Positions 45,353-60,123 of a stretch of 64,000 nucleotides of DNA are shown here, piece after piece. Numbering within the stretch: the first letter of the stretch is position 1; each line of letters opens with the position of its first letter. The translations under genes and the position numbers were made by a program. Origin of the DNA: Streptomyces sp. NBC_01237. GTDB lineage: Bacteria; Actinomycetota; Actinomycetes; Streptomycetales; Streptomycetaceae. Location of the stretch: contig NZ_CP108508.1 in NCBI RefSeq assembly GCF_035917275.1, forward strand, positions 6,510,001 to 6,574,000, in the 5' to 3' direction. A model generated the notes under the pieces. The model had not been told where the DNA came from. It saw nothing but the letters and a program-made list of their open reading frames with translations, and made no database searches.

Positions 45353-45520
45353 CGCACGGTGCCGGGCCCCGGTCCGGGTGCCCGCCTTCGGCTCCGGCCC
45401 GGATTGGGTGCTGAGCGGTACGTCAAGTATCCTGGCTCTTCGGTCGCGCGTAGATCCGCGATCCCGGCTGCCCGTTTCGACTCCGGACCGGGTCGGCCCC
45501 TCCGATGCAGCACGACGCAC

Positions 45521-46186: not shown

Positions 46187-46188
46187 CC

Positions 46189-46362
46189 GTGGCTGTTCCG
46201 AAGCGGAAGATGTCGCGCAGCAACACGCGCCACCGCCGGTCGCAGTGGAAGGCTGCGGTCCCCACCCTGGTTTCGTGCGAGCGTTGCCAGGAGCCGAAGC
46301 TCCAGCACATTGCGTGCCCGAGCTGCGGCACCTACAACAAGCGCCAGGTCCTCGAGGTCTGA
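46189..46362 (+). CDS. rpmF: 50S ribosomal protein L32
   Basis: A 57-residue L32 with the CxxC...CxxC zinc motif (CERCQEP and CPSCG) and the N-terminus [22 protein letters not shown] 46189, directly after the DUF177 stop, with CAGGAG upstream. rnc begins 20 bases later. Confidence 0.97.
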
Positions 46363-46381
46363 GCGGCTGGTGAGAGGCCCG

Positions 46382-47206
46382 ATGTCTGAGTTGTCCAGTG
46401 CCAAGAAGCAGGCAGACAACGTCAACACAGCCTCGTCCCACACGCTTCTGGAAGGGCGGCTCGGGTATCACCTCGAGTCCGCCCTTCTGGTGCGTGCGCT
46501 GACCCACCGTTCGTACGCATATGAGAACGGCGGTCTGCCCACCAACGAGCGGCTCGAATTCCTCGGGGATTCGGTGCTCGGCCTGGTGGTCACGGACACG
46601 CTGTACCGCACCCACCCCGACCTGCCCGAAGGCCAGCTGGCCAAGTTGCGGGCCGCGGTGGTCAACTCACGTGCACTTGCGGAAGTGGGCCGCGGCCTCG
46701 AACTCGGCTCCTTCATCCGGCTCGGCCGCGGTGAAGAGGGCACGGGGGGCCGGGACAAGGCTTCCATCCTCGCCGACACCCTTGAAGCGGTGATCGGTGC
46801 GGTCTACCTCGATCAGGGCCTCAGCGCGGCCTCGGAGCTGGTTCACCGGCTCTTCGACCCGCTGATCGACAGGTCCTCGAACCTCGGCGCCGGTCTGGAC
46901 TGGAAAACCAGCCTCCAGGAGCTCACCGCGAGCGAGAGCCTCGGAGTCCCCGAGTACCTCGTCACGGAGACCGGCCCGGACCACGAGAAGACCTTCACTG
47001 CTGCTGCTCGCGTCGGTGGTGTCTCGTACGGCACCGGCACCGGCCGTAGCAAGAAGGAAGCGGAGCAACAGGCGGCGGAATCCGCCTGGCGTGAGATCAG
47101 CGCCGCCGCGGAAGCGCGGGAGGCCGCGGCGAAGGCCGCAGCCGACGGAGGGGTCGCCGACACCCCTGCCGAGCCGTCGCCGAACACGGACGTCGCTCCG
47201 GCCTGA
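46382..47206 (+). CDS. rnc: Ribonuclease III
   Basis: A 274-residue double-strand RNA endonuclease. The signature is [15 protein letters not shown], with the second catalytic acid region [13 protein letters not shown]; a dsRNA-binding domain follows ([11 protein letters not shown] ... KKEAEQQAA). The last 40 residues are Ala-rich and disordered. In Streptomyces RNase III (AbsB) influences antibiotic production. ATG 46382 follows GAGAGG; GTG 46370 is an alternative. Confidence 0.96.
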
Positions 47207-47214
47207 AGCAACCG

Positions 47215-47250
47215 GGAACCCCTCGGTGCCTAGCGCACCGGGGGGTTTCC
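47215..47250 (+). terminator. Terminator after rnc
   Basis: An imperfect 14- to 15-bp stem (GGAACCCCTCGGTGC with GCACCGGGGGGTTTCC) around CTAGC starts about nine bases after the rnc stop. Confidence 0.75.
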
Positions 47251-47252
47251 CT

Positions 47253-47337
47253 GTGCCGCACGAACCGTCCGTGCCGCACGAACCGTCCGTGCCGTCCGGA
47301 CCGTCCGTGCCGTCCGGACCGTCCGTGCCGTACGGAC
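47253..47337. repeat. 18-bp tandem repeat between rnc and mutM
   Basis: Four full units and a partial fifth: GTGCCGCACGAACCGTCC twice, then GTGCCGTCCGGACCGTCC twice, then GTGCCGTACGGAC. A frame through it would read V-P-H/S-E/G-P-S, but no start or domain supports translation. Copy number is likely to vary between strains. Confidence 0.9.
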
Positions 47338-47383
47338 ATCCCCTTGTCGTCCCGTACCACCCAGTCGTTCCAGGAGCGCCATC

Positions 47384-48241
47384 GTGCCCGAGCTGCCCGA
47401 GGTAGAAGTCGTACGGCGAGGGCTGGAGCGCTGGGTCACCGGCCGCACCGTCACCGAGGTCGAGGTCCTGCACCCGCGCGCGGTCCGCAGACACCTCGCG
47501 GGCGGCGTGGACTTCGCGGCGCGGCTGCGCGGGGTCCGGTTCGGCACGGCGATGCGACGGGGCAAGTACCTCTGGGTGCCGCTGGAAGAGGAGTCCTCCT
47601 CGCTGCTGGGCCATCTCGGGATGAGCGGCCAGCTGCTCGTCCAGCCCGAGGACGCCGCCGACGAGAAGCACCTGCGGATCAGGATCCGGTTCGACGACGC
47701 GCTCGGCACCGAGCTGCGCTTCGTCGACCAGCGGACCTTCGGCGGGCTCTCGCTCCACGAGAACACCCCGGACGGGCTTCCCGACACCATCGCCCACATC
47801 GCCCGGGACCCGCTCGACCCGGAATTCGACGACGCCGCGTTCCACACGGCCCTGCGCCTGCGCCGTACGACGGTCAAACGCGCCCTGCTCGACCAGTCGC
47901 TGATCAGCGGCGTCGGCAACATCTACGCCGACGAGGCGCTGTGGCGGGCCAGGCTCCACTTCGACCGGCCGACCGCGACGCTGACCCGGCCCAAGTCGGC
48001 CGAGCTGCTCGGCCACGCCCGCGACGTGATGAACGCGGCCCTCGACCAGGGTGGCACCAGCTTCGACAGCCTCTATGTGAACGTGAACGGCGAGTCCGGC
48101 TACTTCGACCGCTCGCTCGACGCGTACGGGCGGGAGGGCGAGCCGTGCCACCGCTGCGGTACGCCGATGCGCCGCCGGGCCTGGATGAACCGCTCCAGCT
48201 ACTACTGCCCGCGCTGCCAGCGGCCGCCGCGCGCCTCGTGA
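47384..48241 (+). CDS. mutM: Formamidopyrimidine-DNA glycosylase
   Basis: A 285-residue base-excision repair enzyme removing oxidised purines such as 8-oxoguanine. N-terminal [13 protein letters not shown] gives the catalytic Pro2/Glu3. [19 protein letters not shown] is the H2TH motif and the C-terminal zinc finger has CHRCGTPM...YYCPRCQ. GTG 47384. Confidence 0.96.
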
Positions 48242-48289
48242 CCGGCCCCCGCTCGCGCGGACCGCTCCGTGACCGGGTCGGGACAGCCC

Positions 48290-48664
48290 TCAGCGGCCGC
48301 CGTGCGCCTCGTCGTAGCGCTCGCGGGCCGTCAGTACCTCGGCCATCCGGTCCTGCACGAGCTGGATGAGTCCCAGCAGCCGCCCGGTCACCTCGCGGCC
48401 GAGGGGGGTCAGCTCGTAGTCCACCCGGGGCGGATTGGTGGGCTGTGCCTCCCGGTGCACGAGTCCGTCGCGCTCCAGGGCATGCAGGGTCTGGGAGAGC
48501 ATCTTCTCGCTCACCCCGTCGACCCGACGGCGCAGCTCGTTGAAACGGAGGCTGCCCTCGTACAGCGCGCCGAGGGTGAGGCTGCCCCAGCGCCCGGTGA
48601 CATGCTCCAGCGTGCCGCGCGAAGGGCACTGCCTGGAGAAGACGTCGAACGAGAGGCTGTCCAT
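48290..48664 (-). CDS. HxlR-family transcriptional regulator
   Basis: A 124-residue winged-helix protein. GRWGSLTLGALYEGSLRFNELRRRV and VSEKMLSQTLHALERDGLV form the HxlR domain; a Cys in SRQCPSR near the N-terminus is common in this family and can sense redox or electrophiles. ATG 48664 is used. The expected divergent target gene is missing: upstream lies the integrated element instead. Confidence 0.88.
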   Translation of the reverse strand: MDSLSFDVFSRQCPSRGTLEHVTGRWGSLTLGALYEGSLRFNELRRRVDGVSEKMLSQTLHALERDGLVHREAQPTNPPRVDYELTPLGREVTGRLLGLIQLVQDRMAEVLTARERYDEAHGGR

Positions 48665-48766
48665 ACGCCACACCTTACGCCCGCACAGCGCTTACCAGGA
48701 GAGTGCGCTGTGCGACGTAAAGGGGGGATGCGGGGGCGATACCGGTGGTGCCAGAAGCCCACAGAG

Positions 48767-48804
48767 GCGCTCGGAAGTCTCAGAAGCGCTCGGAAGCCTC
48801 AGAA
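48767..48804. repeat. Tandem 19-bp repeat outside attL
   Basis: Two abutting 19-base copies of GCGCTCGGAAGYCTCAGAA (48767-48785 and 48786-48804). The second copy runs into the attL core, so each unit contains a partial core-like sequence (CTCAGAAG). Confidence 0.85.
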
Positions 48805-48811
48805 GCCGAAG
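48798..48811. repeat. attL core
   Basis: CTCAGAAGCCGAAG, identical to 58306-58319. Joining the left chromosomal flank to the right flank through this core rebuilds an uninterrupted 3' end of the CAP-domain gene. Confidence 0.85.
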
Positions 48812-48964
48812 AACTGAGCCCCCCTTCACGGCGACCTGCGGAACAACGGGCTTTCACTGCCCTGACCTGCGGGGCAGTGGGGCACCATTGGTGAACGTTG
48901 GTGGCTGTGGGCCGTCGTTGGACGGCCCACAGACGGCCCCGGCTAGCGAGGCGAGGAGGGGTCC

Positions 48965-49215
48965 TGACACCTCCGTGACAGTCAGGGCCCCGTGACACCC
49001 AAACCCTTAGGCACGAGCGGTGTCACGCGGGCCTGACACCGCTCGTGACACCGCCTGACGGTGGCCCGTGACGTTGCCTGACACTGCCCGTGACACCTCG
49101 CGTGCCCCGCTCTGACACCCTCAGGGGCGTCGGGGTGTCAGGAGCGTCAGGCCGTGCGTCAGAGGGGTGTCAGACGCTCCTGACGGACGCGTCTACCTAG
49201 GGAAACGTGGTGTCA
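48965..49215. repeat. TGACAC/GTGTCA word array
   Basis: Eleven occurrences of TGACAC (7) or its complement GTGTCA (4) in 251 bases, at irregular spacing and in both orientations. Random expectation is about 0.1. It also holds CACCCAAACCCTTAGGC, closely matched near 56655. Confidence 0.88.
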
Positions 49216-49390
49216 GGCCGTCAGGGGCGTCAGACGAAGAGCCGGATAGACCGCCCTTCGGGCGGGCGACTTTCCGGCGCCTCTGCGGGAGTTCTCCGCC
49301 AGGGCGTCGGCGCCTGCGGAACTCGGATGCCTTCCTACGCAGCACGCCCCTGCCTGAACCGCCTCGTGCTCATCCCGAACGCTCTGCACA

Positions 49391-49430
49391 AGCAAGAGGA
49401 GCACCCGCCGCCGCGCGTGCTCCTCTTGCT
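49391..49430. terminator. Terminator-like hairpin, AGCAAGAGGAGCAC family, copy 1
   Basis: Perfect 14-bp arms (49391-49404 and 49417-49430) around a 12-base loop. The same arm sequence recurs at 51066-51110 and in part at 50706-50755. Confidence 0.75.
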
Positions 49431-49603
49431 GTTCCGGGATATCCCGGTGTCAGGGCCGCCGCAGGCGTTGGCAGGGCTGCGATCCCACGTGGTGCAGCCG
49501 GGAGATGAAGAGGCCACCCCGCCCCGTGGCGTGGTGGTCTCTTCCTGGCGCCCGAGCGTTTCGACGGGTCCGGCAGCGGGCCGCGATACCGATATCGAGC
49601 AGA

Positions 49604-49935
49604 GGGAGGCGCCCCCGCACGGTCCGGGGAGGCAGGGAGAACTCCCTAACCCCCTCCCTGGGCCGCCTCCCTTGGCCTGACCAGCGCAAACCGTCGTTCA
49701 GGGAGGCAGGGAGGCAGTCAGACCAGCCCCCTGAAAGGGGCCGCTGCGAGCCAACCTGAGGGGGGTGTCTCCGCCTCCCTGACACATCCCGAGCAGGGAT
49801 GCCGCACAGCAGCCGTCCGCCTCTCCCACTGAAATGCCTCCAGGAGCCACGTGGGGAGGCAGGGGGCTTCGGGCTTGAGGTCATCCGGCCGCTTCCCCTC
49901 CACGTAGCTTCTGAAGGCATTTCAGTGGGGGAGGC
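49604..49935. repeat. GGGAGGC/GCCTCCC word array
   Basis: Eight copies of GGGAGGC or GCCTCCC (49604, 49627, 49665, 49701, 49709, 49773, 49854, 49929), both orientations. The last lies inside the long inverted repeat. Confidence 0.8.
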
Positions 49936-49937
49936 GG
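49817..49937. repeat. Long inverted repeat (about 120 bases)
   Basis: Arms 49817-49839 and 49915-49937 pair over 23 bases with one mismatch (ACTGAAATGCCT in the left arm). Pairing continues inward imperfectly (AGGAGCCACGTGGGGAGG against CTTCCCCTCCACGTAGCTT), giving a stem of about 40 bp. Such a structure could be a replication origin, a conjugative-transfer locus or a structured RNA; the sequence does not decide. Confidence 0.82.
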
Positions 49938-50172
49938 TCATTCCGCTGGCTCTCACCGCACCTCTTGCGCGCTGCTACCACTTTCATCTGCGGAGCCTGG
50001 AACCCCTTCTCCGCTAGTTGTATCCGCTGATGAGAAGACACCGAAGGCTGCCGACCGCCTCAACGCGTGCTGACGAATATGCCGAAAGTGTGGGCTGCGA
50101 GAGCCTGTCGTTGGGCAGGCGCATTGCTCTTCTTAGGACGGGTACCCAACCCGCTCTGAAACTGGAGACCTC

Positions 50173-50340
50173 ATGGACCACATCGCTCTCGCCGCAGTCC
50201 TCCTCGGTGGGCTCAGCCTGCTCTGCGTCACCGTCGTCTGCGTCGTCGCGATTTGCCGCGCCCATCAAACGGACGTCGTCGCGGTCGTGCTGGCCCTTCC
50301 GGAGCTTGCCCTTGCGCTGCTCCGCCGTAGGCGCCCGTGA
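50173..50340 (+). CDS. Small membrane protein (55 residues)
   Basis: ATG 50173 follows GGAG at five bases. The peptide starts MDHIALAAVLLGG, has a single long hydrophobic span (about residues 4-28) with three Cys, a short polar turn RAHQTD, and a second hydrophobic/amphipathic stretch ending in Leu-Leu-Arg-Arg-Arg-Arg-Pro. Probably one or two membrane passes with a cationic cytoplasmic end. I recognise no family; small Spd-like membrane proteins are common in Streptomyces elements. Confidence 0.65.
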   Translation: MDHIALAAVLLGGLSLLCVTVVCVVAICRAHQTDVVAVVLALPELALALLRRRRP

Positions 50341-50425
50341 CCAATCAGCTTAGGTGCCGTTCCTGAAGCAGTTCTGATTCCGCAACACTTCCCCTGCGCC
50401 GGCGCATCGGTGAAACGATGCCGAG

Positions 50426-50641
50426 ATGACTCGGAACCGGAACTTCACCTCATGGTTGAAGACGCACTCAAAGGCTGAGAGCGCCATCGGTGACCTGGCG
50501 CGTGACGTCGCCGCAGACCCTGACTGGCCCAGCAGGCAGCGGCTCAATGGACAGCGGGGGTACTTGGAGGACCGGGGGGCGATTCCGGCCGCTGTGGAGA
50601 CCCTGGAACGCGCGTGGGAGCTCTACGAGTCTCAGCGGTAG
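50426..50641 (+). CDS. YozE-like SAM-fold protein
   Basis: A 71-residue protein resembling the YozE/UPF0346 family: FTSWLKTH near the start, GDLARDVAADPDWP in the middle, GYLEDRGAIPAAVETLERAWELY at the end. The family forms a small helical SAM-like bundle and is common in actinobacterial elements; function unknown. The hairpin at 50647-50682 directly after the stop is its terminator. Confidence 0.75.
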   Translation: MTRNRNFTSWLKTHSKAESAIGDLARDVAADPDWPSRQRLNGQRGYLEDRGAIPAAVETLERAWELYESQR

Positions 50642-50646
50642 AAGGG

Positions 50647-50682
50647 CAAGAGACCACTCGGTCGCCGCGAGGTGGTCTCTTG
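50647..50682 (+). terminator. Terminator after the YozE-like gene
   Basis: Perfect 11-bp arms CAAGAGACCAC / GTGGTCTCTTG around 14 bases, six bases past the stop. A related hairpin (GAAGAGGCCACC/GGTGGTCTCTTC) is at 49507-49544. Confidence 0.8.
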
Positions 50683-50705
50683 GCTTTCCTGTATTCGCCG
50701 CGCCT

Positions 50706-50755
50706 ACGTGCAAGAGGAGCTCGGCGCCACCTGGCAGCGAGCTCCTCTTGCACGT
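50706..50755. terminator. Terminator-like hairpin, copy 2 (17-bp arms)
   Basis: ACGTGCAAGAGGAGCTC and its exact complement enclose 16 bases. The CAAGAGGAGC core is shared with copies 1 and 3. Confidence 0.75.
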
Positions 50756-50822
50756 GGCCAGGCTCTTCAGGGGGTTCCGCTTAGCTCTCGCCCCCTCTCA
50801 TCCTAGAGAGTTAAGGGAAGAC

Positions 50823-51007
50823 AGCGTCCGTAGCGTCCGCAAGGTGTGGCGCACTATGCCTGACCTGCTGAAACAGTGCGGACGCTAAACAAAATGTATA
50901 GCGTCCGCCAGCGTCCGCAGCGTCCGCAAGATCCACTCCCTCTGAAGAGCATCACCGCAGGTCAAGGCGGCTCTTCAGAGGAGAGATGTGCGGACGCTGC
51001 GGACGCT
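50823..51007. repeat. AGCGTCCG/CGGACGCT word array, copy 1
   Basis: Eight copies of the octamer in 185 bases, both orientations, including three in a row at 9- to 10-base intervals (CCAGCGTCCGCAGCGTCCGC). The same word array recurs at 56068-56329. The stretch also has an AT-rich promoter-like patch (AAACAAAATGTATAG). Confidence 0.88.
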
Positions 51008-51187
51008 GACCCCCGCACCGAGCGCTGGTTCCGGGCGGTCGCAAGCATTCCGCTTCGTACGTACAAGCAAGAGGAGCACCCCCGCCGGGGCCGCTGGTGC
51101 TCCTCTTGCTGTTCGGCTCAAGCCGCGCTTCGTGCTTGGCGGTACTACAAAGGACTTCCCCCTCTTTTTCTTAAGTAGGGAAGCTCT
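51008..51187. other. Non-coding stretch with hairpin copy 3
   Basis: Part of the gene-free region 50642-51686. It contains the 15-bp hairpin at 51066-51110 and an AT-rich patch near 51150-51180 with the stem CTTCCC/GGGAAG. I see no gene. Confidence 0.55.
51066..51110. terminator. Terminator-like hairpin, copy 3
   Basis: AGCAAGAGGAGCACC and its exact complement (51096-51110) around 15 bases; the arm is one base longer than copy 1 and otherwise the same. Confidence 0.78.
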
Positions 51188-51403
51188 GCGTCACCTGCGT
51201 CACCTAGGACAGAAAGCGGCCCCTGAGCTGCACGAACAGGGGTGACGCAGACGGCCGATCCTGCGTCACCCCTGCGTCACCTGCGTCACCCCCCGCGTCA
51301 CCGATGACGCAGACGATGACGCAGGGGTGACGCACCCCCAACCGGCTGCGTCACCCAAAACGCCAGGTCAGAGCCCCCGATGACGCGGGTGACGCGGTGA
51401 CGC
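51188..51403. repeat. GCGTCA/TGACGC word array
   Basis: Fourteen copies of GCGTCA or TGACGC in 216 bases, most as TGCGTCACC, both orientations. This is the densest of the element's arrays. The first copies run into CCTAGG at 51204. Confidence 0.9.
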
Positions 51404-51614
51404 AGAAAACGGAGCCTCGGACAGGTCCTGTGCCATCGGATCGGAGGACCCGCACCGCGCCACGGCGCCGCGGCCGGACGACGCGCCTCGCGCGCTCGCG
51501 CAGCGGGCTGCAAAATGTCATGCGGCTTGCCGCTCCTTCTATCCACTCCCTCACCACGGCACGTGATTCTGGGCGGCAGAAGGTGACTCCAAGGTTGCGT
51601 AGTCCCTGCCAGGT

Positions 51615-51690
51615 CTAGCAGGGGCGGGTGCTAGACCTAGCAGGCGCGCTAGCGGCTCAAAGTGCCCCTGATCAGGGATCTAGCGTCTAG
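51615..51690. repeat. CTAG cluster
   Basis: Six CTAG tetramers in 76 bases, a word that is normally rare in Streptomyces DNA. It sits at the 3' end of the kinase gene; the last copy includes that gene's stop codon. GCCAGGTCTAGCAGGGGCGGGTGCTAGACCTAGC-type symmetry suggests overlapping small palindromes. Confidence 0.75.
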
Positions 51691-52247
51691 CGCTCGGTTT
51701 TCAGCCCTGCCGTTTCGAGGGCTTCCAGCACCGAATCAGGGTTGCCGCCGTAGACGATGTGAGGCTCATCGGCCTGAGGCGGGATGAATCTCGTCCGGTA
51801 CCGAGTCAGGTCGCTTTCCGAGAAGAAGATCGAGTTCGGATCGGCCTTGTGGCGAGCGTTTCGCTCGCTGACTCGTGCCCAGAGTTCTTCGTGGCTCGCC
51901 TCCAGGTAGACAAGCATTACCCGACCCCCGGCGTTCGCGGCCACCGAGCTCCAGTGAGCGCGGTCTTCTGGAGTCCAGAACCCGTGATCGACCACGACGT
52001 TGTGTCCCGCCCGAAGCTGCTCACCGAGGTCTACGGCGATCTCTTCCAGCACCGGGCGTTCCAACTTCGGGAAGATGCCTCGCGGGAAGTCGACCCCGTA
52101 CACACCATGGCGACGAAACATCTCCTCGTCCGGGCACAGCCGGACGAACCTGCGTGCCGTAAGGGCGCGCGAGAGAGTCGTCTTACCCGATCCGGGGAGC
52201 CCCGCCATTAGGACGCAGAACGGACCTGAGGTTGAAGCCGCCGTCAC
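51687..52247 (-). CDS. P-loop kinase (zeta-toxin-like/AAA ATPase)
   Basis: A 186-residue nucleotide-binding kinase. AGLPGSGKTTLSRAL is the Walker A loop; LCPDEEMF follows a beta strand, VVVDHGFWTPEDRAHW is the Walker-B/lid region, and RNARHKADPN a basic lid. The fold is that of small-molecule or zeta-toxin-type kinases. GTG 52247 overlaps the GntR stop by four bases with GGAGG upstream, so GntR and kinase are one operon. Whether it is a toxin, a nucleotide kinase or a resistance-type phosphotransferase is open. Confidence 0.82.
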   Translation of the reverse strand: MTAASTSGPFCVLMAGLPGSGKTTLSRALTARRFVRLCPDEEMFRRHGVYGVDFPRGIFPKLERPVLEEIAVDLGEQLRAGHNVVVDHGFWTPEDRAHWSSVAANAGGRVMLVYLEASHEELWARVSERNARHKADPNSIFFSESDLTRYRTRFIPPQADEPHIVYGGNPDSVLEALETAGLKTER

Positions 52248-53002
52248 TGCGCTACCTCCGACTCCGTGAGCCACGTCCGGCCCGGCCCGCCGAGGTCTAC
52301 GCCATATTCAACGACCTGGCCCGTACTGTCGATGAACTTCGCGGTCATGACGACCACCGGCTCCATCGGAGGGTTCGACGGGTCCAGCTCCAGGAGCCTG
52401 GCGTCTGTCGGCCTCAGCAGGCGGGCTGAAGCGGTGTCGATCCGGCGGGTGATCGGCCTTCCGGTGGCCTTGGCGATGAGCTGCAACGACGTGCCACCGG
52501 TGAGGCGGGCACTCTCGGCGAGTTGGGGCACCAGCTCTCCATACTCAGCGGGAATCCACGAGGTCGAATGCGCGACGATGCCGCGACGATCGCGATACAC
52601 CCGGCGTCGGCGGATAACGTCTGAGTCCGGCGTGATCTCCAAGGCTGCTGCCACATCGGCCGGCGCTGAGACCATCGACGCCTCATGCGAGTCGGACCGC
52701 TCACCCGCTCCCCAGCTCGAACCGCTGCGGTGGCCACGATCCTGCCGCTGGGAGCCTGAGGACATCGGCGTGGGGCGGTCGATCACCTCGGTACCAATGC
52801 CGTGGATGCCTCGCACGAGCCCTTCGCCGCGAAGCTGCCGCAACGCCTTCTCGGCGGTGGCGGTGCTGACGCTCCACTCCTGTGACAGGGCTTTGATGCT
52901 GGGCAGAAGCTCGCCGGGCTGCAGTTTTCCTGAGGCGATCAGGTCCGTGTAGTGGGCGGCGATCCGTGCGTACGGCGCCCTATGACCAGCCTGCTCCGGC
53001 AT
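52244..53002 (-). CDS. GntR/UTRA-family regulator (KorSA-like)
   Basis: A 252-residue repressor. The N-terminal winged helix is YARIAAHYTDLIASGKLQPGELLPSIKAL...VSTATAEKALRQL. A Ser/Arg-rich linker leads to a UTRA effector domain (VIRRRRVYRDRRGIVAHSTSW...). The best-known analogues in Streptomyces elements are KorSA/Pra-type regulators of pSAM2. It faces the coupled plus-strand operon, with a CCCTAGGG array between, its probable operator. Confidence 0.88.
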   Translation of the reverse strand: MPEQAGHRAPYARIAAHYTDLIASGKLQPGELLPSIKALSQEWSVSTATAEKALRQLRGEGLVRGIHGIGTEVIDRPTPMSSGSQRQDRGHRSGSSWGAGERSDSHEASMVSAPADVAAALEITPDSDVIRRRRVYRDRRGIVAHSTSWIPAEYGELVPQLAESARLTGGTSLQLIAKATGRPITRRIDTASARLLRPTDARLLELDPSNPPMEPVVVMTAKFIDSTGQVVEYGVDLGGPGRTWLTESEVAQ

Positions 53003-53031
53003 TCTCAGCTCCTTCTCTCAGTTGATGAGTT

Positions 53032-53079
53032 CCCTAGCGTACCGCTTGACACCCTAGGGCGCCCTAGGGAACCCTAGGG
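53032..53079. promoter_or_regulatory. CCCTAGGG operator array with 10-bp phasing
   Basis: Perfect CCCTAGGG palindromes at 53052, 53062 and 53072, plus a half-site CCCTAG at 53032, all on a 10-bp register (one helical turn). A TTGAC lies between the half-site and the first full site. The array is between the divergent GntR and replication/nuclease operons. Confidence 0.85.
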
Positions 53080-53146
53080 ATGTGCCCACCGGTTGCTCAA
53101 ATCGGGAGGTGCAGCAGCGCTGTGGACCTGGTGCTGATCGTAAGAA

Positions 53147-53170
53147 AGCCCTGGCCAGAAGACCAGGGCT
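53147..53170. other. Leader hairpin upstream of the 131-residue gene
   Basis: AGCCCTGG / CCAGGGCT arms around CCAGAAGA, 67 bases before the ATG at 53237. It may be an attenuator or an end point for transcripts from the operator side. Confidence 0.5.
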
Positions 53171-53236
53171 CTCACAGGGAGCGGCTCCCTACCGCCAAGC
53201 AGAACGCCGCTCCCCGACCCTCGAAGGGGTAAGTCC

Positions 53237-53632
53237 ATGATGCCTGGAATTCTTGCGGAGCGTTCTACCGCTGGACAGCTGGTCAACGACGTCGATGTGT
53301 TCGGTGAGCCGGAGCAGGGGACACCGACCCGCGTAACGGTGCAGGTTCGTGCCTGCCTCTCCTTCGGGGAGCTGCTGGCGATGCTGGTGTTCACGCCCGG
53401 GCTGAATCTGCTCTGGGAGGAGCTGGACGAGGACGAGGCGATCCGGTACGGCGTCCAGTTCGCGGCCCTTTCGGCGGACCTGTTGGACCTGTACTACCTG
53501 GCCTCGTACGTCACGGCCCTGTACCGGGGTGACGAAGTGCTGCACACGGAGCGGGTGTACCCGGCCGTGGAGGTCGACTACCTGATGGCGGTCGGCCGCG
53601 CCGTCACCCGCGTATTCGGGGTGACCGCGTGA
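53237..53632 (+). CDS. Element hypothetical protein (131 residues)
   Basis: I do not recognise the family. It is acidic, starts MMPGILAERSTAGQLV, and has a helical middle (FGELLAMLVF... LLWEELDEDEAIRYG... LLDLYYLASYVTAL). ATG 53237 follows AAGGGG. Its stop overlaps the HNH gene start (GTGA), making it the first gene of a chain of translationally coupled genes. Homologues are likely in other actinobacterial elements, but I cannot name one. Confidence 0.7.
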   Translation: MMPGILAERSTAGQLVNDVDVFGEPEQGTPTRVTVQVRACLSFGELLAMLVFTPGLNLLWEELDEDEAIRYGVQFAALSADLLDLYYLASYVTALYRGDEVLHTERVYPAVEVDYLMAVGRAVTRVFGVTA

Positions 53633-54279
53633 GTGCCCGTCACCTGACCGCGTCCCGTCGGCGCCTGCGCAAGGAACAGCTCGCACGCGTCCACGGGGCC
53701 CGGTGCACCTACTGCCGTCGCCGGTTCGCGGCGCTGCGGGAAGCGACCCTGGACCACATCGTGCCGGTGTCCCTCTACCGGACGTGGTCGGTCGGCAACC
53801 TCGCTCTTGCGTGCGCCAACTGCAACCACGCGAAGGCCGACCGGCTGCCGCTGTCCATGGCCCTTCTGCTGGTCTGGTGGACGGCTCCGGACCGGTCGGC
53901 CGTCCACCCGGTGCAAGAGGTGGACGTTCACGGTTTCCACCCGGTGTTCACCACCCCTCGGGACGCGTTCATCGAGAGCGCCGACGGCACCGCCGGTTCC
54001 CTTGCGGGAATTGGGAATCCGCCGGTCGGGGCGGGTGGAAACGGGGTGGACAGCCAACCGGTTTCCACCCCGTCCCCCTCGATCGACTGGCGCCTGCTGG
54101 CCCGACTCGCGCACGCCCGCCAGTCGGCCACCGCGCCCCGTGGACGCCCTGAGTGTCCGGGGGGACGCCGCGATCACCATTTGGGATTCCACCTGCGTGT
54201 TCACCCCCGCCACCGGCCCGACCGGTCGACCCGCACGCGGCTGTGCGCGCACCACCCGACCGGCGAGGGGGCGGCATGA
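53629..54279 (+). CDS. HNH endonuclease
   Basis: A 216-residue protein. The HNH core spans residues 26-67: zinc Cys26/Cys29 (CTYC), the LDHIVPVS strand with the catalytic His43, Asn57 in GNLALAC, and the second zinc pair Cys62/Cys65 (CANCNHAK). The C-terminal half is low complexity and holds a repeated FHPVFT/GFHP-type DNA word (GTTTCCACCC). GTG 53629 overlaps the previous stop and the final TGA overlaps the next ATG. HNH enzymes in elements may nick DNA for replication, recombination or helper interference; the target is unknown. Confidence 0.85.
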   Translation: MSARHLTASRRRLRKEQLARVHGARCTYCRRRFAALREATLDHIVPVSLYRTWSVGNLALACANCNHAKADRLPLSMALLLVWWTAPDRSAVHPVQEVDVHGFHPVFTTPRDAFIESADGTAGSLAGIGNPPVGAGGNGVDSQPVSTPSPSIDWRLLARLAHARQSATAPRGRPECPGGRRDHHLGFHLRVHPRHRPDRSTRTRLCAHHPTGEGAA

Positions 54280-54452
54280 CACCCCCGATCCGCACGGCCG
54301 TCCGCACACCCCGCACGGTCACCCGCACGGCTACCCGCACGCCTGACCGGTCGAGGTGTTACCTGCGCGTACACCGGGGCCGCACGGCCACCCGCACAGT
54401 CACCCGCACGGCCACCACCCGCCTGCGCGGAACCGCAAGGACGGCAGCATGA
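54276..54452 (+). CDS. Arg/Thr-repeat basic protein (58 residues), translationally coupled
   Basis: ATG 54276 overlaps the HNH stop (ATGA), and its own TGA (54450-54452) overlaps the helicase ATG 54449 (ATGA again). The peptide is built of RT-rich repeats (TVTRTATRT, TATRTVTRTAT) with about 15 Arg and 17 Thr, almost no acidic residues, and no known fold. The double overlap strongly suggests translation. A nucleic-acid-binding role for such a basic peptide is inference. The DNA is correspondingly a CCGCACGG-type repeat. Confidence 0.6.
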   Translation: MTPPIRTAVRTPRTVTRTATRTPDRSRCYLRVHRGRTATRTVTRTATTRLRGTARTAA

Positions 54453-56158
54453 ACATCCCGACCAAGCGACTGAACGCCGTGAACGGTTCCGTGAACACCA
54501 GCCCCCCGGCGCTGAACACCGAGGGCGGCACCGTGAACGATCGACCCGACCACGTGAACACGATCCCGGCCGCCGTGAACAAGCGGCAGTCGACCGGCGG
54601 CCCGACCGATCGACCCGGCGGTGGTGACGGGGACGGAGGCAAGAAGCAGTCGGCCGCCGTCCGGCTGGTCGCTCTGGCGCGGGAGCGGTACACGTTCGTC
54701 ACGTCGACCGACGGCCGCCCGTACGCGGTCGCGATCGACGGCCCGAACCTCGCTCTCCCTCTGCGTGGCCGGACCGGGCTTCGCCAGCGTCTCGCCCGCC
54801 TGTACGCCGACACCTTCGAAGGGGACGTTGCCTCGCAGTCGGCCCTGGCGGACGCGATGACGGTGCTGGAGGGGATCGCGGATTCCGAGGACCCGGTACC
54901 GGTCCATCTGCGGGTCGGGAACGACGACTCGGGCCGGATCGTGGTCGACCTGGGGACCGCGGACGGCCGTGCCGTGACCGTGTCCGGGGCCGACGGATGG
55001 CACGTGGTGGAGCGCTCCCCGGTGCTGTTCCGCCGCTCCGGGGCCATGGCCCCGATGCCGACCCCGGTCCTGGACGGTGACGGCCTGGCCAAGCTCCACG
55101 GGCTGCTGAACATGGACGAGACCACGTTCCGGCAGCTGGTGGCGTGGCTGGTCGCCGCGTGGATCCCGACCATTCCGCACCCGGTCCTGACGTTCAAGGG
55201 CGAGCAGGGCACGGGGAAGTCGAAGACGGCGCAGATGGTCGTGAACCTCATCGACCCGTCGCCCGCCTCGAAACGGTCGCAGCCGCGGGACATCAAGGCT
55301 TGGTCCGCGCAGGCGTTCAACTCGTGGGCGCTGTGCCTGGACAACGTCAGCACGATCCCGCCGTGGCTCTCCGACACTCTGTGCAAGGCCGTCACCGGCG
55401 ACGGGATCGTGGACCGGGCCCTGTACACCGACGACGACGTGGTCGTGCTGTCCTTCCGCCGGGTGCTGGCCATGACGACGATCGACGCGGGGGCGCTGGC
55501 CGGAGACCTCGCGGAACGGCTCCTGATGCTCGATCTCCAGCTGATCGAGGAAGACCGGCGCCGGACGGAAGAGGAGCTGGACGGCCGGTTCGAAGAGGTC
55601 CGGCCGGCCGTTCTGGGAGCTCTCTTCGATCTCCTGGCGTGCGTGCTGGCCACCCTGCCCACGGTGCGGCTCGACTCCATGCCCCGCATGGCCGACTTCG
55701 CCCGCGTGCTGGCCGCCGTCGACCAGGTCCAGGAGTGGCAGACCCTGGACACCTACCTCACCGCTTCCGCGAACGTCGCGGGCGACGCGCTGGAAGGCGA
55801 CTTGTTCGGCTCGGCGGTCGCGGCCCTGGTCGAAGAGGCCGGGACATGGACCGGGACCGCGGCGCAGCTTCTCGAACAGCTCCAGCCGCCCGGCGGGGTC
55901 CGGCCGCCGAACTGGCCCAAGGACGCCACCCGCGCGGGAGGCAAGGTCAAGCGCCTCGCTCCGCTCCTGCGGTCCGTCGGGATCACGGTGGACGACACGC
56001 AGCGTAGCCGTGACAGGCACCGTCACAAGCTCCTGATCCTCACCCGGACCGATCCGCCCGACGAGTCAGCGTCCGCAGCGTCCGCACCGCAGGAACAGAC
56101 CCTGTGGCCCGACGTGGCCCCCATCGGACAGGGACACATCCCGCCTGACCTGCACTGA
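54449..56158 (+). CDS. SF3/D5-like helicase (replication ATPase)
   Basis: A 569-residue protein. Walker A is FKGEQGTGKSKTA (Lys257) and Walker B likely LCLDN (Asp298), followed by a sensor-like RRVLAMTT stretch, matching virus/plasmid SF3- or D5-type DNA helicases, often fused to primases. No primase catalytic motif is visible. The N-terminal 45 residues are a disordered repeat of V-N (LNAVNGSVNT...). The C-terminus has a winged-helix-like segment (KRLAPLLRSVGI). It is the best candidate replication protein of the element. Confidence 0.8.
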   Translation: MNIPTKRLNAVNGSVNTSPPALNTEGGTVNDRPDHVNTIPAAVNKRQSTGGPTDRPGGGDGDGGKKQSAAVRLVALARERYTFVTSTDGRPYAVAIDGPNLALPLRGRTGLRQRLARLYADTFEGDVASQSALADAMTVLEGIADSEDPVPVHLRVGNDDSGRIVVDLGTADGRAVTVSGADGWHVVERSPVLFRRSGAMAPMPTPVLDGDGLAKLHGLLNMDETTFRQLVAWLVAAWIPTIPHPVLTFKGEQGTGKSKTAQMVVNLIDPSPASKRSQPRDIKAWSAQAFNSWALCLDNVSTIPPWLSDTLCKAVTGDGIVDRALYTDDDVVVLSFRRVLAMTTIDAGALAGDLAERLLMLDLQLIEEDRRRTEEELDGRFEEVRPAVLGALFDLLACVLATLPTVRLDSMPRMADFARVLAAVDQVQEWQTLDTYLTASANVAGDALEGDLFGSAVAALVEEAGTWTGTAAQLLEQLQPPGGVRPPNWPKDATRAGGKVKRLAPLLRSVGITVDDTQRSRDRHRHKLLILTRTDPPDESASAASAPQEQTLWPDVAPIGQGHIPPDLH

Positions 56159-56329
56159 CGTAGCCGGAACACCACCGGGCCGGGCCGCGAAACAGCGGCC
56201 CGGACACGTCACCCGCTGCGGACGCTGAAGCCGTCCAGCGTCCGCAGCGTCCGCACCAGCGTCCGCACCTCTCACCCCAACTGACCTGCGAAGACAGGTG
56301 GGTGCGGACGCTGGGACGCTGCGGACGCT
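56068..56329. repeat. AGCGTCCG/CGGACGCT word array, copy 2
   Basis: Eight copies of the same octamer as at 50823-51007. The first two lie inside the helicase gene (coding SASAASAP); the others fill the 250-base gap before the excisionase gene. The two arrays bracket the central operons of the element. Confidence 0.88.
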
Positions 56330-56408
56330 GCGATACATCAACTCTCTAGTACGGCGACCGGCACCACTCCCACGCACCGCACCACGGACACGAGGAGTAA
56401 CCACCACC

Positions 56409-56630
56409 ATGGCCACCGACCCCCGCGCGACCCTCCGCGCCGGACTCCCGGACCGCTACCTCACCCCCGAAGACCTCGCCGCGCTGCTCACCGTCCCGGT
56501 CGAGACCGTCTACCACTGGCGCAAGCGCCGCACCGGACCGCCCGGCTTCCGCGTCGGCCGCCACATCCGCTACGACCCCGCCGCCGTCCGCGACTGGATC
56601 ACCCAGCAGACCACCCGCGACGCCGCCTGA
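56409..56630 (+). CDS. Excisionase-like helix-turn-helix protein
   Basis: A 73-residue MerR/Xis-type protein. YLTPEDLAALLTVPVETVYHWRKRRTGPPGFRVGRHIRY is the typical HTH_17 pattern with the WRKRR wing, then DPAAVRDWI. ATG 56409 after an ACGAGGAG-containing leader. It lies upstream of the integrase gene, as Xis commonly does in AICEs, and presumably directs excision. Confidence 0.88.
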   Translation: MATDPRATLRAGLPDRYLTPEDLAALLTVPVETVYHWRKRRTGPPGFRVGRHIRYDPAAVRDWITQQTTRDAA

Positions 56631-56635
56631 CACCC

Positions 56636-56756
56636 GTCACATGTGACAGCCGCGTCACACCCAAACCCCTAGGCGGGAGCGGGTGTGACGCGCCCTCACG
56701 GCGGCCCGTCACACCCCCGCGTGACGGCGTCACACCCCCGCCGTCACAGCGTCACA
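56636..56756. repeat. GTCACA/TGTGAC word array
   Basis: Eight copies in 121 bases. It includes CACCCAAACCCCTAGGCGGGAGCG, a close relative of the motif at 48994 in the left array (written here only in part: CACCCAAACCCCTAGGC). Confidence 0.85.
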
Positions 56757-56758
56757 CC

Positions 56759-56930
56759 CACCCGGTCGGCAGCTGAAATGCCCCGGTTTGCCACCCGGTC
56801 GACGGACACCGCTACCCGGTCGGCCGACCACCCAACGGGGGGCAGCGACCACCCGGCAAACCGGGGTCAAACGGGCGCCGACCGGGTTGCGACCACCCGG
56901 ACGACCACCCAATTTGCCCCGGACTGCACC
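56759..56930. repeat. ACCCGG and GACCACCC word array
   Basis: Six ACCCGG/CCGGGT and four GACCACCC words in about 170 bases, directly after the GTCACA array. CCCCGGTTTGCC and its approximate complement (GGCAAACCGGGG) form an inverted pair, 56782 and 56855. Confidence 0.8.
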
Positions 56931-57050
56931 CCGGACAACCGGGCGGACAGGGGGCGGACACGACCCGGGCACCGTCCACCCCCCTGTCCACCCTGCTGTC
57001 CGCCCTCACCGACCCAAGGCACAGCACCCAACCGAGAGGAGTCAGCCACC

Positions 57051-58379
57051 ATGGCTGGCCACATCCAAGACCGCTGGTTCAAGACCGAGACCACTTCAGA
57101 CGGCAAGACCAGCCGCACAAAGACCGACCGTCACGGAACCGGCCTCCGTTACCGGGCCCGCTACATCGGGCCCAACGGCACCGAGAAGTCCAAGAGCTTT
57201 CCTGACAAGCAGAAGCGACTGGCCGAGCAGTGGCTGAACGAGACGGCGGCCGACATGGCGCGCGGACACTACGTCGACCCAGATGCAGGGAAGGTGACGT
57301 TCGGGCAGTACGCCATCAAGTGGATGACCACCCAGATGACAGACCCCGCAACCAGGGAGTCCGTAGAGATGCGACTTCGGCTCCACGCGATCCCTCATCT
57401 GGGACAGCGCTCCTTGGCCTCTTTCAACCCGACTCACCTGCGGCAGTGGATTCGGACCCTGGAGGATGCCGGGCTCTCACCCGCCTACCGGCGCGGAATC
57501 TTCGCGCACGTCTCGACTGTGTTTACGGCAGCGGTCGAGGACCGGCTTATCCACTCGAATCCGTGCAGCGCCCGTTCGGTCAAGGCACCCCGCCTTGATC
57601 CGCGCAAGGTCAAGCCGTGGCCGGCCGATCGCGTGATGGCTGTGCGAGCAGCGCTTCCCGAGCGATATCGCGTCCTGGTCGAGCCTGCCGCCGGGTGTGG
57701 CCTGCGGCAGGGGGAAGTCTTCGGGTTGGCCGTTGAGGACGTGGACTTTCTTGGTGGAGTCGTGCATGTGGTGCGGCAGGTGAAGCTTCTGCGTAACCGG
57801 CCGGTGTTCGCCCCTCCCAAGGGAGGCAAGGAGAGGGATGTTCCGTTGCCTGATTCGGTTGCGGACGCCTTGAGGGCGCACCTGGTGAAGCATCCGGCGA
57901 AGGAGATCACCTTGCCGTGGAAGTCGGCGGACGGGAGGCCCGTCACCGCGACCCTGATCCTTTACAGCCCTGAGGGCCTCTCCCTGAACCGCAATCGCTT
58001 CAATCACCGGGTGTGGAAGCCCGCTCTCGAAGCCGCGGGCGTCCCCACGGTTCGCGACAACGGTACGCACGCGCTGCGGCACTTCTACGCGTCGGTGCTC
58101 CTGGACGCCGGGGAGAGCATCAAGGCTCTCAGCGAGTATCTGGGGCACCACGACCCAGGTTTCACGCTACGGACGTATACCCATCTCATGCCTGCGAGCG
58201 AGACTCGTACCCGCGCGGCGGTGGACGGCGTCTTCAACGGAACCGGGCACACCCACGGCCCTGAGACGGCCCATGGGCACGAAGGTGTCTCTGACCTGCG
58301 GACTTCTCAGAAGCCGAAGTCCTGCGTCCACCAGGGGCCGCCGGAACCGGCGTGCATGCCGACGCCGAGGGTCTTGTAA
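57051..58379 (+). CDS. int: Tyrosine-recombinase integrase
   Basis: A 442-residue phage/AICE-type integrase. An N-terminal arm-binding region (residues 1-70) and a SAM-like core-binding domain (TFGQYAIKWM...) precede the catalytic domain, with Arg219 (CGLRQGE), His340/Arg343 (HALRHFYAS), His366 (LGHHDPG) and nucleophile Tyr376 (RTYTHL). ATG 57051 follows GAGAGGA. The gene reads through attR: its last 19 residues are encoded by chromosomal DNA antisense to the CAP gene. In the excised circle the frame would end one codon after the core. Confidence 0.95.
   Translation: MAGHIQDRWFKTETTSDGKTSRTKTDRHGTGLRYRARYIGPNGTEKSKSFPDKQKRLAEQWLNETAADMARGHYVDPDAGKVTFGQYAIKWMTTQMTDPATRESVEMRLRLHAIPHLGQRSLASFNPTHLRQWIRTLEDAGLSPAYRRGIFAHVSTVFTAAVEDRLIHSNPCSARSVKAPRLDPRKVKPWPADRVMAVRAALPERYRVLVEPAAGCGLRQGEVFGLAVEDVDFLGGVVHVVRQVKLLRNRPVFAPPKGGKERDVPLPDSVADALRAHLVKHPAKEITLPWKSADGRPVTATLILYSPEGLSLNRNRFNHRVWKPALEAAGVPTVRDNGTHALRHFYASVLLDAGESIKALSEYLGHHDPGFTLRTYTHLMPASETRTRAAVDGVFNGTGHTHGPETAHGHEGVSDLRTSQKPKSCVHQGPPEPACMPTPRVL
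58306..58319. repeat. attR core
   Basis: CTCAGAAGCCGAAG, matching attL. It contains the last two codons and TGA stop of the CAP gene (minus strand) and codons 419-423 of the integrase (plus strand). Confidence 0.85.
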
Positions 58380-59248
58380 TCGCAGTTGAGAATGTTTGCC
58401 CGGTGCCCGTCGCTGTTCATCCAAGCCGCCATCACGGCCTTGGCGTCGGCCTGTCCGCGGGCGATGTTCTCGCCGCCGAGCCCCTGTATGCCGGCCTTCG
58501 CGGCACGGTCCCAGGGGGTCGCGCCGTCGGGGTCGGTGTGGTCGAAGAAGCCGCGCGCAGCCATGTCCTCGCTGAAGTTCTGGGCGAGCGCGGTCAACGG
58601 GGCGCTGGTGGTGACCGGGGAGCAGCCGACCTTGGACCGTTCCTGGTTCACCAGGGCGAGGACGGCGGCCTGCGCGGAGGTGGCGGAGGGCGAGGGGGCG
58701 GCCGGTGCCTTCCGGGACGGTGCGGCGGACGAGGTCTTCGGCGCGGCCGGGGCCTTCGTCGCCGGGCTCGTGGTCTTCCTCGGCGTCGCGGGGGGAGTCT
58801 TCGACGGCGTCTTCGAGGGCGCCTTCGACTCGGTCGGCCTCTTCGACGGCACGGCGGCCGGCTTGCTGGGGGTGGCGGAAGCGGAAGCGGACTTCGACGG
58901 AGCCTTCGGCCGTGCGCTGCCCCGGCTTGCGGGGTTGGAGGCCGAAGCGGAGGCGCGGTCGGTCGGCTCGGCCGAGTCGCCGCCCTGCGTCAGGAGGTCC
59001 GGTGCGCCACCGGAGCGCAGCTGGTCCGCGGTGGACGTACCGCCCACGGTGTGGGTGTCACCACCGGGCAGCAGACCCGAGGCCAGGGCGACCGCTCCCA
59101 GGGCCACCGCCGCGGAGACGCCGAGGAGCCCGGTGCGCACGGGCAGGGAAGCCCGCTTCTTCCGTCGCGCATCCCGGTGCCCGAACGCGGCTCCGGCCGC
59201 GTTCTCCTCGGCGGCGGGGTCTGCGGCGGATCGTCGGTGGCGTCCCAT
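58307..59248 (-). CDS. CAP/SCP-domain secreted protein
   Basis: A 313-residue protein. A basic N-terminus and one hydrophobic segment (VRTGLLGVSAAVALGAVALA, an anchor or signal) lead to a 110-residue Ser/Pro/Lys/Ala linker and a C-terminal CAP domain (residues about 190-313). The domain shows VLALVNQERSKVGCSP, the HTDPDGATPWDR region, GENIARGQADAKAVMAAWMNSDGHRANIL and the end GGPWWTQDFGF. Cys pair in GCSP/NCDY. CAP proteins of this kind are secreted and of uncertain function. The stop codon lies in the attachment core. Confidence 0.92.
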   Translation of the reverse strand: MGRHRRSAADPAAEENAAGAAFGHRDARRKKRASLPVRTGLLGVSAAVALGAVALASGLLPGGDTHTVGGTSTADQLRSGGAPDLLTQGGDSAEPTDRASASASNPASRGSARPKAPSKSASASATPSKPAAVPSKRPTESKAPSKTPSKTPPATPRKTTSPATKAPAAPKTSSAAPSRKAPAAPSPSATSAQAAVLALVNQERSKVGCSPVTTSAPLTALAQNFSEDMAARGFFDHTDPDGATPWDRAAKAGIQGLGGENIARGQADAKAVMAAWMNSDGHRANILNCDYKTLGVGMHAGSGGPWWTQDFGF

Positions 59249-59401
59249 GCGCAGTGCCTTCCTGGTGCTCCGGACGCCCCTGCGACGTCACAATTCTCAG
59301 CCGTACTCACCCGTTCGAGTGAGACTATTGCGACCGGACTGTACGCCATGGGTCAAAGGGGCGAAGTGCTCCGAGGGCCATTGGCCCGTTAGCGTTCACG
59401 T

Positions 59402-59683
59402 ATGAGCGAAGACGCACGACTCGTCGTTTGGGTACGCGGCCGAGTACAGCAAGTAGGCTTCCGCTGGTTCACCAGGGCAAACGCTTTGGAGATCGGTGGG
59501 CTGATCGGCTTTGCCCTCAATCTCGACGACGGCAGGGTGCAGGTCGTCGCCGAGGGTCCACGTGAGAATTGCCACCGTTTGCTGGACTGGCTGCGTTCCG
59601 ACGACACACCCGGGCGCGTGGACGGAGTCACTGAGATCTGGGACACGCCGCGCGGGGGTTACGAGGGATTCGCGATCCGTTGA
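59402..59683 (+). CDS. acyP: Acylphosphatase
   Basis: A 93-residue enzyme hydrolysing acyl phosphates. The signature [12 protein letters not shown] gives the catalytic Arg, and the Asn in [15 protein letters not shown] the second active residue. ATG 59402. It commonly precedes smc in Streptomyces. Confidence 0.94.
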
Positions 59684-60123
59684 TCACGGCATCGGCGAGG
59701 GGCTGTGGATTCGCACCGTATACGGAGCGCGCCGGGCGGTTACCGAAGAGTTCAGGGTGACCCCGCACCCGAAATGACCTGCGAAGGGACCTGGCGGCGG
59801 CCTGTGGTTGCCAAGAACGGGCCGGCGTGCCAGGCTGCGGCATTAACGAAGATCTCCACGCCCCTCAGGGCCCCGCAGGAGAGTCGCGCCGCATGATCGA
59901 AAAGCCGCGCACCCCCGGGACGCCCGCCTCTACGGGGTGTGATCGTGTTGACCGTCAAACTTTTTGGTGAGACGCTGAAAACCCCGCGCACCTTAGCTGT
60001 TTGGCAGAGCTGTTTGGCAGCAGAACCGCAGTGTTGACAGGGCACTGCCGAGCACCGCGGGTGCGATTCCCTCACGACCCACACCGCTCTCGGTCGGTCA
60101 CTCAGTGTGGAGGACCATCCATC
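59684..60123. other. Intergenic region upstream of the 70-residue gene
   Basis: These 440 bases hold a tandem 13-bp repeat (AGCTGTTTGGCAG at 59995-60007 and 60008-60020) and a TTGACA at 60034-60039 about 85 bases before the next ATG. The repeat and promoter element probably serve the downstream gene. A T-loop-like GGTGCGATTCCC near 60060 is not part of a foldable tRNA. Confidence 0.5.

Follow-up and report, generated by a model that had tools for sequence, protein, structure and literature searches.

In the window analysed here, a stretch of 64,000 nucleotides of Streptomyces sp. NBC_01237 (contig NZ_CP108508.1, positions 6,510,001 to 6,574,000), a 9.5-kb element (48798-58319) carries int, xis, a helicase gene and attachment sites, and several different arrays of short repeated words. 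We consider it likely that this is an integrative mobilizable element (IME) which carries a library of mimics of clt, the transfer sites of Streptomyces plasmids, together with one foreign replication-type array, and which would be a satellite of actinomycete conjugative elements, probably hitchhiking with several unrelated helpers. Conjugation in Streptomyces, as described in PMC3583192 and PMC4170104, requires only a hexameric FtsK-like protein, TraB, that moves double-stranded DNA and recognizes repeated words of about 8 bp (TraB recognition sequences, TRS) at clt. The arrays of the element are short words repeated several times within about 100-250 bp, as the clt architecture requires, and most of them are homologous to arrays located at TraB/FtsK genes of other elements. 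The arrays that are central to this reading are the following (no strand is assigned to arrays).

48965-49240: TGACACC array, predicted clt mimic of a pWTY27-type TraB, from homology to the footprinted clt.
49590-49945: GGGAGGC array, predicted clt mimic of an L102-type FtsK/TraB, from homology to ftsK-adjacent arrays.
50815-51015: AGCGTCCG array, left copy, putative second part of the element's own replicon, from the two-cluster pattern in relatives.
51175-51415: GCGTCA array, replication-type, of hel2-helicase elements, from the position 3' of hel2 in other loci.
51600-51695: CTAG array, predicted clt mimic of another FtsK/TraB kind, from homology to FtsK 3' ends.
56060-56340: AGCGTCCG array, right copy, putative origin of the element itself; it lies where the helicase gene ends and is conserved in relatives.
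56628-56757: CGTCACA array, predicted second pWTY27-type clt mimic with a shifted word; it overlaps the xis stop codon.

The original prediction held that each non-coding segment of the element is an array of its own short word. The words are indeed present at the places and in the numbers claimed, at a density far above that in dinucleotide-shuffled sequence, and counts on both strands reproduce the use of different words by neighbouring arrays: 7+4 copies of TGACAC, 6+2 of GGGAGGC, 7+7 of GCGTCA, 6 of the palindrome CTAG, 6+2 of GTCACA, 5+3 and again 5+3 of AGCGTCCG, which is used at two places in the element, and 5+1 of ACCCGG plus 4 of GACCACCC. The TGACAC (48965) and GTCACA (56640) arrays are two versions of one array with the common core CCCAAACCC[C/T]TAGGC. 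Additional arrays, beyond those first listed, consist of CCCTAGG (before gntR), CCGCACG, GGGTGGA (within the HNH coding sequence) and CGTGAAC (within the 5' end of the helicase coding sequence). Some GC-rich 7-mers recur outside the element too, as they would if the word counts merely reflected base composition. However, that explanation is ruled out by the shuffles and by the homologous arrays: the commonest 7-mer reaches at least 6 copies per 200 bp in 22 of the 188 segments inside the element, against 3 of the 2400 dinucleotide-shuffled segments and 21 of the 1081 outside the element (with words like CAGCAGC, AAGAAGG, CCGGCCG and CCGTCCG). The claim that each word is confined to its own stretch is valid for density only, since the short words also occur elsewhere (GCGTCA has 31 copies outside the element within the window, both strands counted).

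The TGACACC array leads to an experimentally characterized site. Its first part (48965-49061) is 81% identical to positions 9816-9913 of plasmid pWTY27, at the 3' end of traB (as the translocase, named TraA in PMC3583192, is annotated in RefSeq). According to that report, the pWTY27 clt was mapped at 9803-9977, contains four TGACACC repeats among others, is needed in cis for transfer and was footprinted by the plasmid's own translocase. The identity is 80-83% in the best six of the 19 matching loci, and five of those six are traB loci, including one in the genome of the element itself. The best matches of the CGTCACA array are 79-82% identical and are found where traB genes end; in the alignment to pWTY27, the stop codons of xis and traB coincide. 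The start of the match at the xis stop codon is set by the cut of the query, and some of the matches obtained with a longer query start 5-17 bp earlier. Each array was searched in 150 genomes of the genus (E up to 1e-4). CGTCACA was found at 10 places, one of which is the window, and seven of the nine others abut or closely follow traB genes. Conversely, 27 pWTY27-type traB genes (E up to 1e-30) are present in 23 of the 150 genomes, and among these 27 loci, 7-mers with at least 5 copies in 250 bp are of the TGACAC type in 16, GGTGTTA in one, and other words (CTGTTCC, CCGGACG, CCGCCGC and GCGCACC) in four. The words near the TraB-like genes of loci L078, L094, L095 and L097 (GGTGTTA, CTGTTCC, CCGGACG and GCGCACC) are further candidate clt words.

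The GGGAGGC array is 76-78% identical over about 200 bp to arrays whose matched part begins 13-27 bp past an ftsK stop codon, one of them in the same genome (L169). This class was found at 41 places in 38 genomes; among the 30 places fetched, 27 sit 13-27 bp after the FtsK stop codon and three are in relatives of the element. A further GGGAGGC match, on plasmid CP109096, separates rep from the genes that follow it and is about 1.8 kb away from an ftsK that comes after it. The CTAG array shows 79% identity to L124, an FtsK 3' end, and a search with its homologue from L023 yielded 29 places in 24 genomes, of which 27 are immediately 3' of an FtsK-like gene, with 1-44 bp between them and the stop codon (25 distinct genes, two pairs of hits falling on one gene each), the other two being in relatives of the element. 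GTAGAGG was detected at 14 places in 12 genomes: six lie 68-103 bp after an FtsK stop codon, five are in the element family (one is the window), one is beside genes 36-44% similar to gntR/HNH, and two have no context. Taken together, 10 of the 13 CTAG, GGGAGGC and GTAGAGG loci away from FtsK belong to the element family. Eight of the 10 CGCTTGC places are at FtsK genes, all of them the same genes as the CTAG hits, so that this word is given no separate count.

By their organization, the arrays are of the clt/TRS kind, and the opinion that no named system resembles them does not hold. Local amplification of each word, one of the two origins originally proposed, is unneeded because the arrays are homologous to arrays elsewhere. 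The other proposal, that each array serves a different binding protein, fares better, with the amendment that the expected binders of most arrays are the TraB/FtsK proteins of other elements. The GntR regulator, Xis, helicase and reverse transcriptase (RT) peptide that had been suggested as binders do not fit most arrays, which recur at FtsK genes; no RT family was matched among the nine element proteins scanned against Pfam and PHROG. As a common binder of all arrays, the element's own GntR, Xis or helicase was likewise rejected, given that the FtsK genes at which most of the arrays turn up again have no such neighbours.

A single pattern-limited scan of species genomes yielded 61 loci, 29 of which have a helicase at least 65% identical (best segment) and an xis match; together with the window, these form the set of 30 elements considered below. 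Three loci (L026, L027 and L059) that reach the 65% helicase identity were excluded for want of an xis match, and several of the 30 elements are cut by contig ends (region lengths of 4.5-11.9 kb). No FtsK/TraB was detected in any of the 30 element regions at E 1e-5. The arrays in the xis-int spacer and in the left part vary among the elements and the array layout is kept, which is the pattern of changing words in a constant architecture that the original prediction had proposed to look for in homologues. Assigned by homology to helper arrays, the foreign classes are represented in 27 (GGGAGGC), 27 (CTAG), 11 (GTAGAGG), 6 (GACAAGC), 6 (GCGTCA) and 5 (TGACACC) of the 30 elements, and 28 elements carry two to five of these six classes. 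On these assignments, the 30 elements carry differing mixtures of one array pool. The same classes gave no hits in control sequence (189,017 bases in 26 stretches, comprising the first 40 kb of the window and the flanks beyond int of 22 loci).

The GCGTCA array appears to belong to a different functional category. It was matched in 50 of the 150 genomes, and among the 30 listed places that were fetched, 27 lie 3' of a hel2-type helicase gene, one is the window, one is a relative and one is unplaced. On plasmid CP109214, the matching stretch (73.6%, E 4e-24) lies on the 3' side of a VapE-type gene. A GCGTCA place is found 2.7-5.2 kb downstream of traB or of a CTAG/GGGAGGC place in 27 of the 50 genomes, the arrangement one would predict if clt and origin belong to a single conjugative element; the array of our element is probably a mimic of the origin of such a foreign helper. 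The distribution of AGCGTCCG instead indicates an array of the element's own: strong matches are confined to 4 of the 150 genomes (own genome included), all in the element family, with four additional short, chance-level ones without context. This word occupies the helicase-xis spacer in 29 of the 30 elements (the exception is L012), and two AGCGTCC clusters are found in 25 of the 30 (window included). A CTGANC[AT]GC core is present inside the GGGAGGC, GCGTCA and both AGCGTCCG arrays (positions 49677, 50860, 51223 and 56281); this core occurs 7 times in 9.8 kb of element and 11 times in 54.2 kb outside.

The helicase-like ATPase itself, considered as a candidate member of the P4 alpha/D5 helicase family, had no Pfam or PHROG match. 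It is 35% identical to hel2 of the same genome, and related plasmid or phage genes are annotated as ATP-binding protein, VapE, helicase or primase; its homologues, counting distant ones, number 1417 at E up to 1e-3, and the named ones among the 120 matches listed are all from Streptomyces. The arrays could alternatively be iterons of several origins, each array for a different replication protein. Such a function fits the position of GCGTCA 3' of hel2 (27 of 30 loci) and probably AGCGTCCG, which follows the helicase in 29 of 30 elements. As an explanation of the whole set it is quite unlikely, however, because TGACACC, CGTCACA, GGGAGGC, CTAG and GTAGAGG lie at FtsK/TraB 3' ends and TGACACC corresponds to a footprinted transfer site.

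The rest of the element fits a mobile unit. The two 14-bp repeats at its ends were taken as attL and attR, delimiting 9.5 kb, because they are identical and because an uninterrupted site in a relative (L260), with the gene order mutM-HxlR-CAP and no element, carries this core as well, where the CAP gene ends (3'). The attachment sites and genes are as follows.

48798-48811, plus strand: attL core CTCAGAAGCCGAAG, left element end; identical 14 bp at 58306-58319.
50174-50341, plus strand: open reading frame for a putative peptide of 55 aa, hydrophobic as judged by eye.
50426-50641, plus strand: YozE SAM-like protein of 71 aa (PF06855, E 7e-9).
51687-52247, minus strand: AAA_33/zeta-like kinase (PF13671, E 4e-21), start codon uncertain.
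52244-53002, minus strand: GntR-UTRA regulator (PF00392, PF07702).
53237-53632, plus strand: open reading frame for a 131-aa protein, no Pfam or PHROG match.
53629-54279, plus strand: HNH endonuclease (PF01844, E 2e-9), with GGGTGGA repeats in the 3' part of the gene.
54449-56158, plus strand: replication helicase-like ATPase, from homologues; the P-loop GEQGTGKS is conserved in the alignment.
56409-56630, plus strand: Xis-like HTH_17 protein (PF12728, E 3e-12; phrog_66 excisionase).
57051-58379, plus strand: tyrosine integrase (PF00589, E 3e-20).
58306-58319, plus strand: attR core, at the 3' end of a CAP-domain gene (58307-59248, minus strand).

The scan of nine element proteins for Pfam and PHROG families detected no relaxase or type IV secretion system (T4SS) family. 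Of the traits of actinomycete integrative and conjugative elements (AICEs), the element has the tyrosine integrase, Xis and attachment sites and lacks a detectable TraB/FtsK translocase; its own integration genes, with no transfer machinery found, are traits of an IME. The same anatomy, that is, TraB-type arrays, no TraB found and conserved words, would also serve a decoy, whose arrays sequester TraB made by conjugative elements, resident or incoming, and hinder these instead of serving the element's own transfer. We regard this as unlikely because int, xis and the attachment sites fit mobility, and single arrays of about natural clt size would presumably be weak competitors.

In phage P4, a helicase is accompanied by a single iteron word that occurs at two sites some distance apart, and the element likewise combines a helicase with two distant arrays of one word (in 25 of the 30 elements). 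With this P4-like layout, one could envisage a phage satellite with arrays that imitate helper-phage origins or packaging sites. Nevertheless, 48800-51720 had no DNA match in a set of 50,697 phage records, the sole phage matches of the helicase are two records of Microbacterium phage Zeta1847, and no capsid, terminase or packaging family, nor any phage gene, was found among the nine scanned proteins, making such a satellite extremely improbable. For an IME, transfer would be expected to occur by conjugation.

Alignments constructed with MAFFT and compared to the AICE consensus indicate that the arrays of the elements retain the words: 94% of the word positions are kept in GGGAGGC against 58% of other positions, and 92% against 50% in CTAG. 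In a tree of the GGGAGGC arrays, most element copies form their own branches, and only those of the window, L025 and L056 (the last two being long branches) group with AICE copies, which speaks against frequent recapture of this array. A tree of 85 translocase pieces, built with a quick method, has GGGAGGC and GTAGAGG marking one clade each and CTAG marking two; according to a warning of the program, the split of CTAG into two clades coincides with a meeting of long branches, and only these three labels are independent of the choice of protein, the TGACACC rows having been picked by protein and only some of them carrying TGACACC. Given that array and gene are neighbours and are inherited together, clustering alone is weak proof of specificity.

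The arrays could also be modular debris, acquired by recombination with conjugative elements and functionless in the present element, as the Int and Xis types shared with hel2-type elements might suggest. We find this very unlikely: no FtsK remnant was found in the 30 elements, GGGAGGC and CTAG are each kept in 27 of the 30, words are conserved while spacers diverge, and the element copies of GGGAGGC, being mostly on their own branches, look old and kept.

Several observations weigh against a library of clt mimics. The pWTY27 clt is the one matched site that is established experimentally, and the other FtsK-adjacent arrays are named clt on the strength of position and architecture. Six of the 27 pWTY27-type traB loci are without any 7-mer at 5 or more copies in 250 bp. 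The contrast between words and spacers is not special to the elements because AICE copies also conserve words better (96% against 80% for GGGAGGC, 95% against 72% for CTAG), and in the TGACACC arrays of five elements the words are kept little more than other positions (85% against 73%). The assignment of GACAAGC is ambiguous: 8 of its 29 loci have a gene 23-28% similar to the 'transfer protein' of plasmid NZ_CP109021, three have element-family genes (two of these being one place), one has an ftsK match, and in the other 17 no query matched, except for a primase-polymerase in L232; four neighbouring putative open frames scored weakly for AAA, FtsK or zeta families, always below the curated cut-offs. 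Origin-type and clt-type arrays do not appear sharply separated because the GCGTCA and AGCGTCCG arrays share the CTGANC[AT]GC core with GGGAGGC. Finally, ACCCGG, CCGCACG, GGGTGGA, GTGAAC and CCCTAGG have no match at a TraB and are not filed as clt.

The positions of three of these last arrays are as follows.

53040-53085: CCCTAGG repeats before gntR, a possible operator, from the word count; no match in the array homology search.
54231-54410: CCGCACG array, 7 copies, at the HNH gene end and in the following spacer.
56757-56950: ACCCGG/GACCACCC array, from the word count.

The CCGCACG array has a 78% match in relatives of this element only and none in plasmids, and resembles the pJV1 clt repeat, quoted as CCGCACA[CG][CG] in PMC3583192. 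ACCCGG has one 36-bp match outside its own genome in the 150 genomes and none in plasmids. The 3' part of the HNH gene (53870-54060) is rich in GGGTGGA/TCCACCC words, without a match in the array homology search. The GTGAAC word at the 5' end of the helicase gene (54449-54600) encodes a variable N-terminal tail with 'VN' repeats, and homologues have different repeats in the same tail, so that a word array may be overlaid on the coding sequence here.

Among the other features, the 3' end of the kinase gene meets the CTAG array, and 50217-50300, within the frame of the 55-aa peptide, matches DNA under a hypothetical gene of plasmid NZ_CP107795 at 80%. Three hairpins on GCAAGAGGAGC ... GCTCCTCTTGC (49387-49430, 50705-50751 and 51062-51110), between the array segments of the left part, may be transcription terminators. 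At the 3' end of the same CAP gene in L261 (genome G002), there is DNA about 74% similar to the integrase gene, probably another element at this attachment site. A structured-RNA explanation was dropped when the arrays turned up at traB; the RNA check consisted of Rfam alone, which gave no known family at the gathering threshold in 44000-62000.

If the arrays act as clt mimics, the element would integrate and excise through its own Int and Xis and would probably replicate with its own helicase from the paired AGCGTCCG arrays. The TraB of a resident helper would then assemble on the matching array and move the excised double-stranded circle into the recipient, where Int would insert it. Mimics for several TraB kinds (TGACACC, its CGTCACA variant, GGGAGGC and CTAG here; GTAGAGG and perhaps GACAAGC in relatives) would widen the helper range, provided that one array suffices per TraB kind. 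The least certain step is that the GCGTCA copy, because it sits in origin position, may recruit the replication proteins of the helper. The genome of the element has, in a row, an FtsK gene with a GGGAGGC array (C1:4752171, L169), the hel2 helicase (4754532) and GCGTCA (4756223), and elsewhere a traB with a TGACACC array (C1:3604178). These two loci are possible helpers, if their completeness as conjugative elements is assumed.

The element can be compared with several described systems. In the clt/TRS loci of Streptomyces plasmids (pWTY27, pJV1, pSVH1 and pIJ101), as reported, short repeated words with inverted repeats are recognized by the plasmid's own TraB-type protein, whereas the element groups clt-type arrays of different TraB kinds and no traB was found in it. 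AICEs such as pSAM2 likewise have Int and Xis, together with an array that comes after a replication gene (PMC3218068); the element, in which no TraB/FtsK was found, is not an AICE. SGI1 and other IMEs are integrating elements mobilized by a helper (PMC5704250, PMC11389934, PMC7433901), as is proposed here, but the IMEs described in PMC5704250 and PMC11389934 depend on a relaxase, an origin of transfer (oriT) and a T4SS, and none of those described there uses TraB. The precedent is oriT mimicry in staphylococci, where, according to PMC8136818, non-conjugative plasmids carry two or three kinds of mimics of helper transfer origins; multiple oriTs on a plasmid are also mentioned in the review PMC11389934. 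The staphylococcal mimics are for an oriT, relaxase and T4SS system, whereas here word arrays for a double-stranded DNA/TraB system reside on an integrating element, with up to five foreign array classes per element, one class being replication-type. Mimicry of helper transfer origins is thus already known, and its TraB version appears to be new within the open-access literature searched, where we found no description of a clt-mimicking element for a TraB system.

Frankia elements without tra or rep have been suggested to be remnants or 'mobilizable integrating elements' (PMC3218068). By carrying several candidate clts, the present element family suggests a way of using several helpers, and it supplies sequences for testing this. 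The frequency of these elements is roughly known only, from the 29 relatives in the one pattern-limited scan and from the presence of AGCGTCCG in 4 of 150 genomes. From the comparison, candidate clt words emerge simultaneously for more than one kind of translocase (GGGAGGC, CTAG and GTAGAGG), so that a TraB word code becomes testable. More broadly, and tentatively, with the balance slightly against it, a class of Streptomyces elements might steal both steps of spread from unrelated helpers, transfer by means of a swappable library of TraB-specific clt arrays and amplification by means of copies of the helpers' replication arrays (GCGTCA), and their word repertoires would track whichever TraB types the population contains. 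If true, such an element would be a satellite of conjugation with multiple helpers, and the arrays would constitute a dictionary for reading TraB word specificities.

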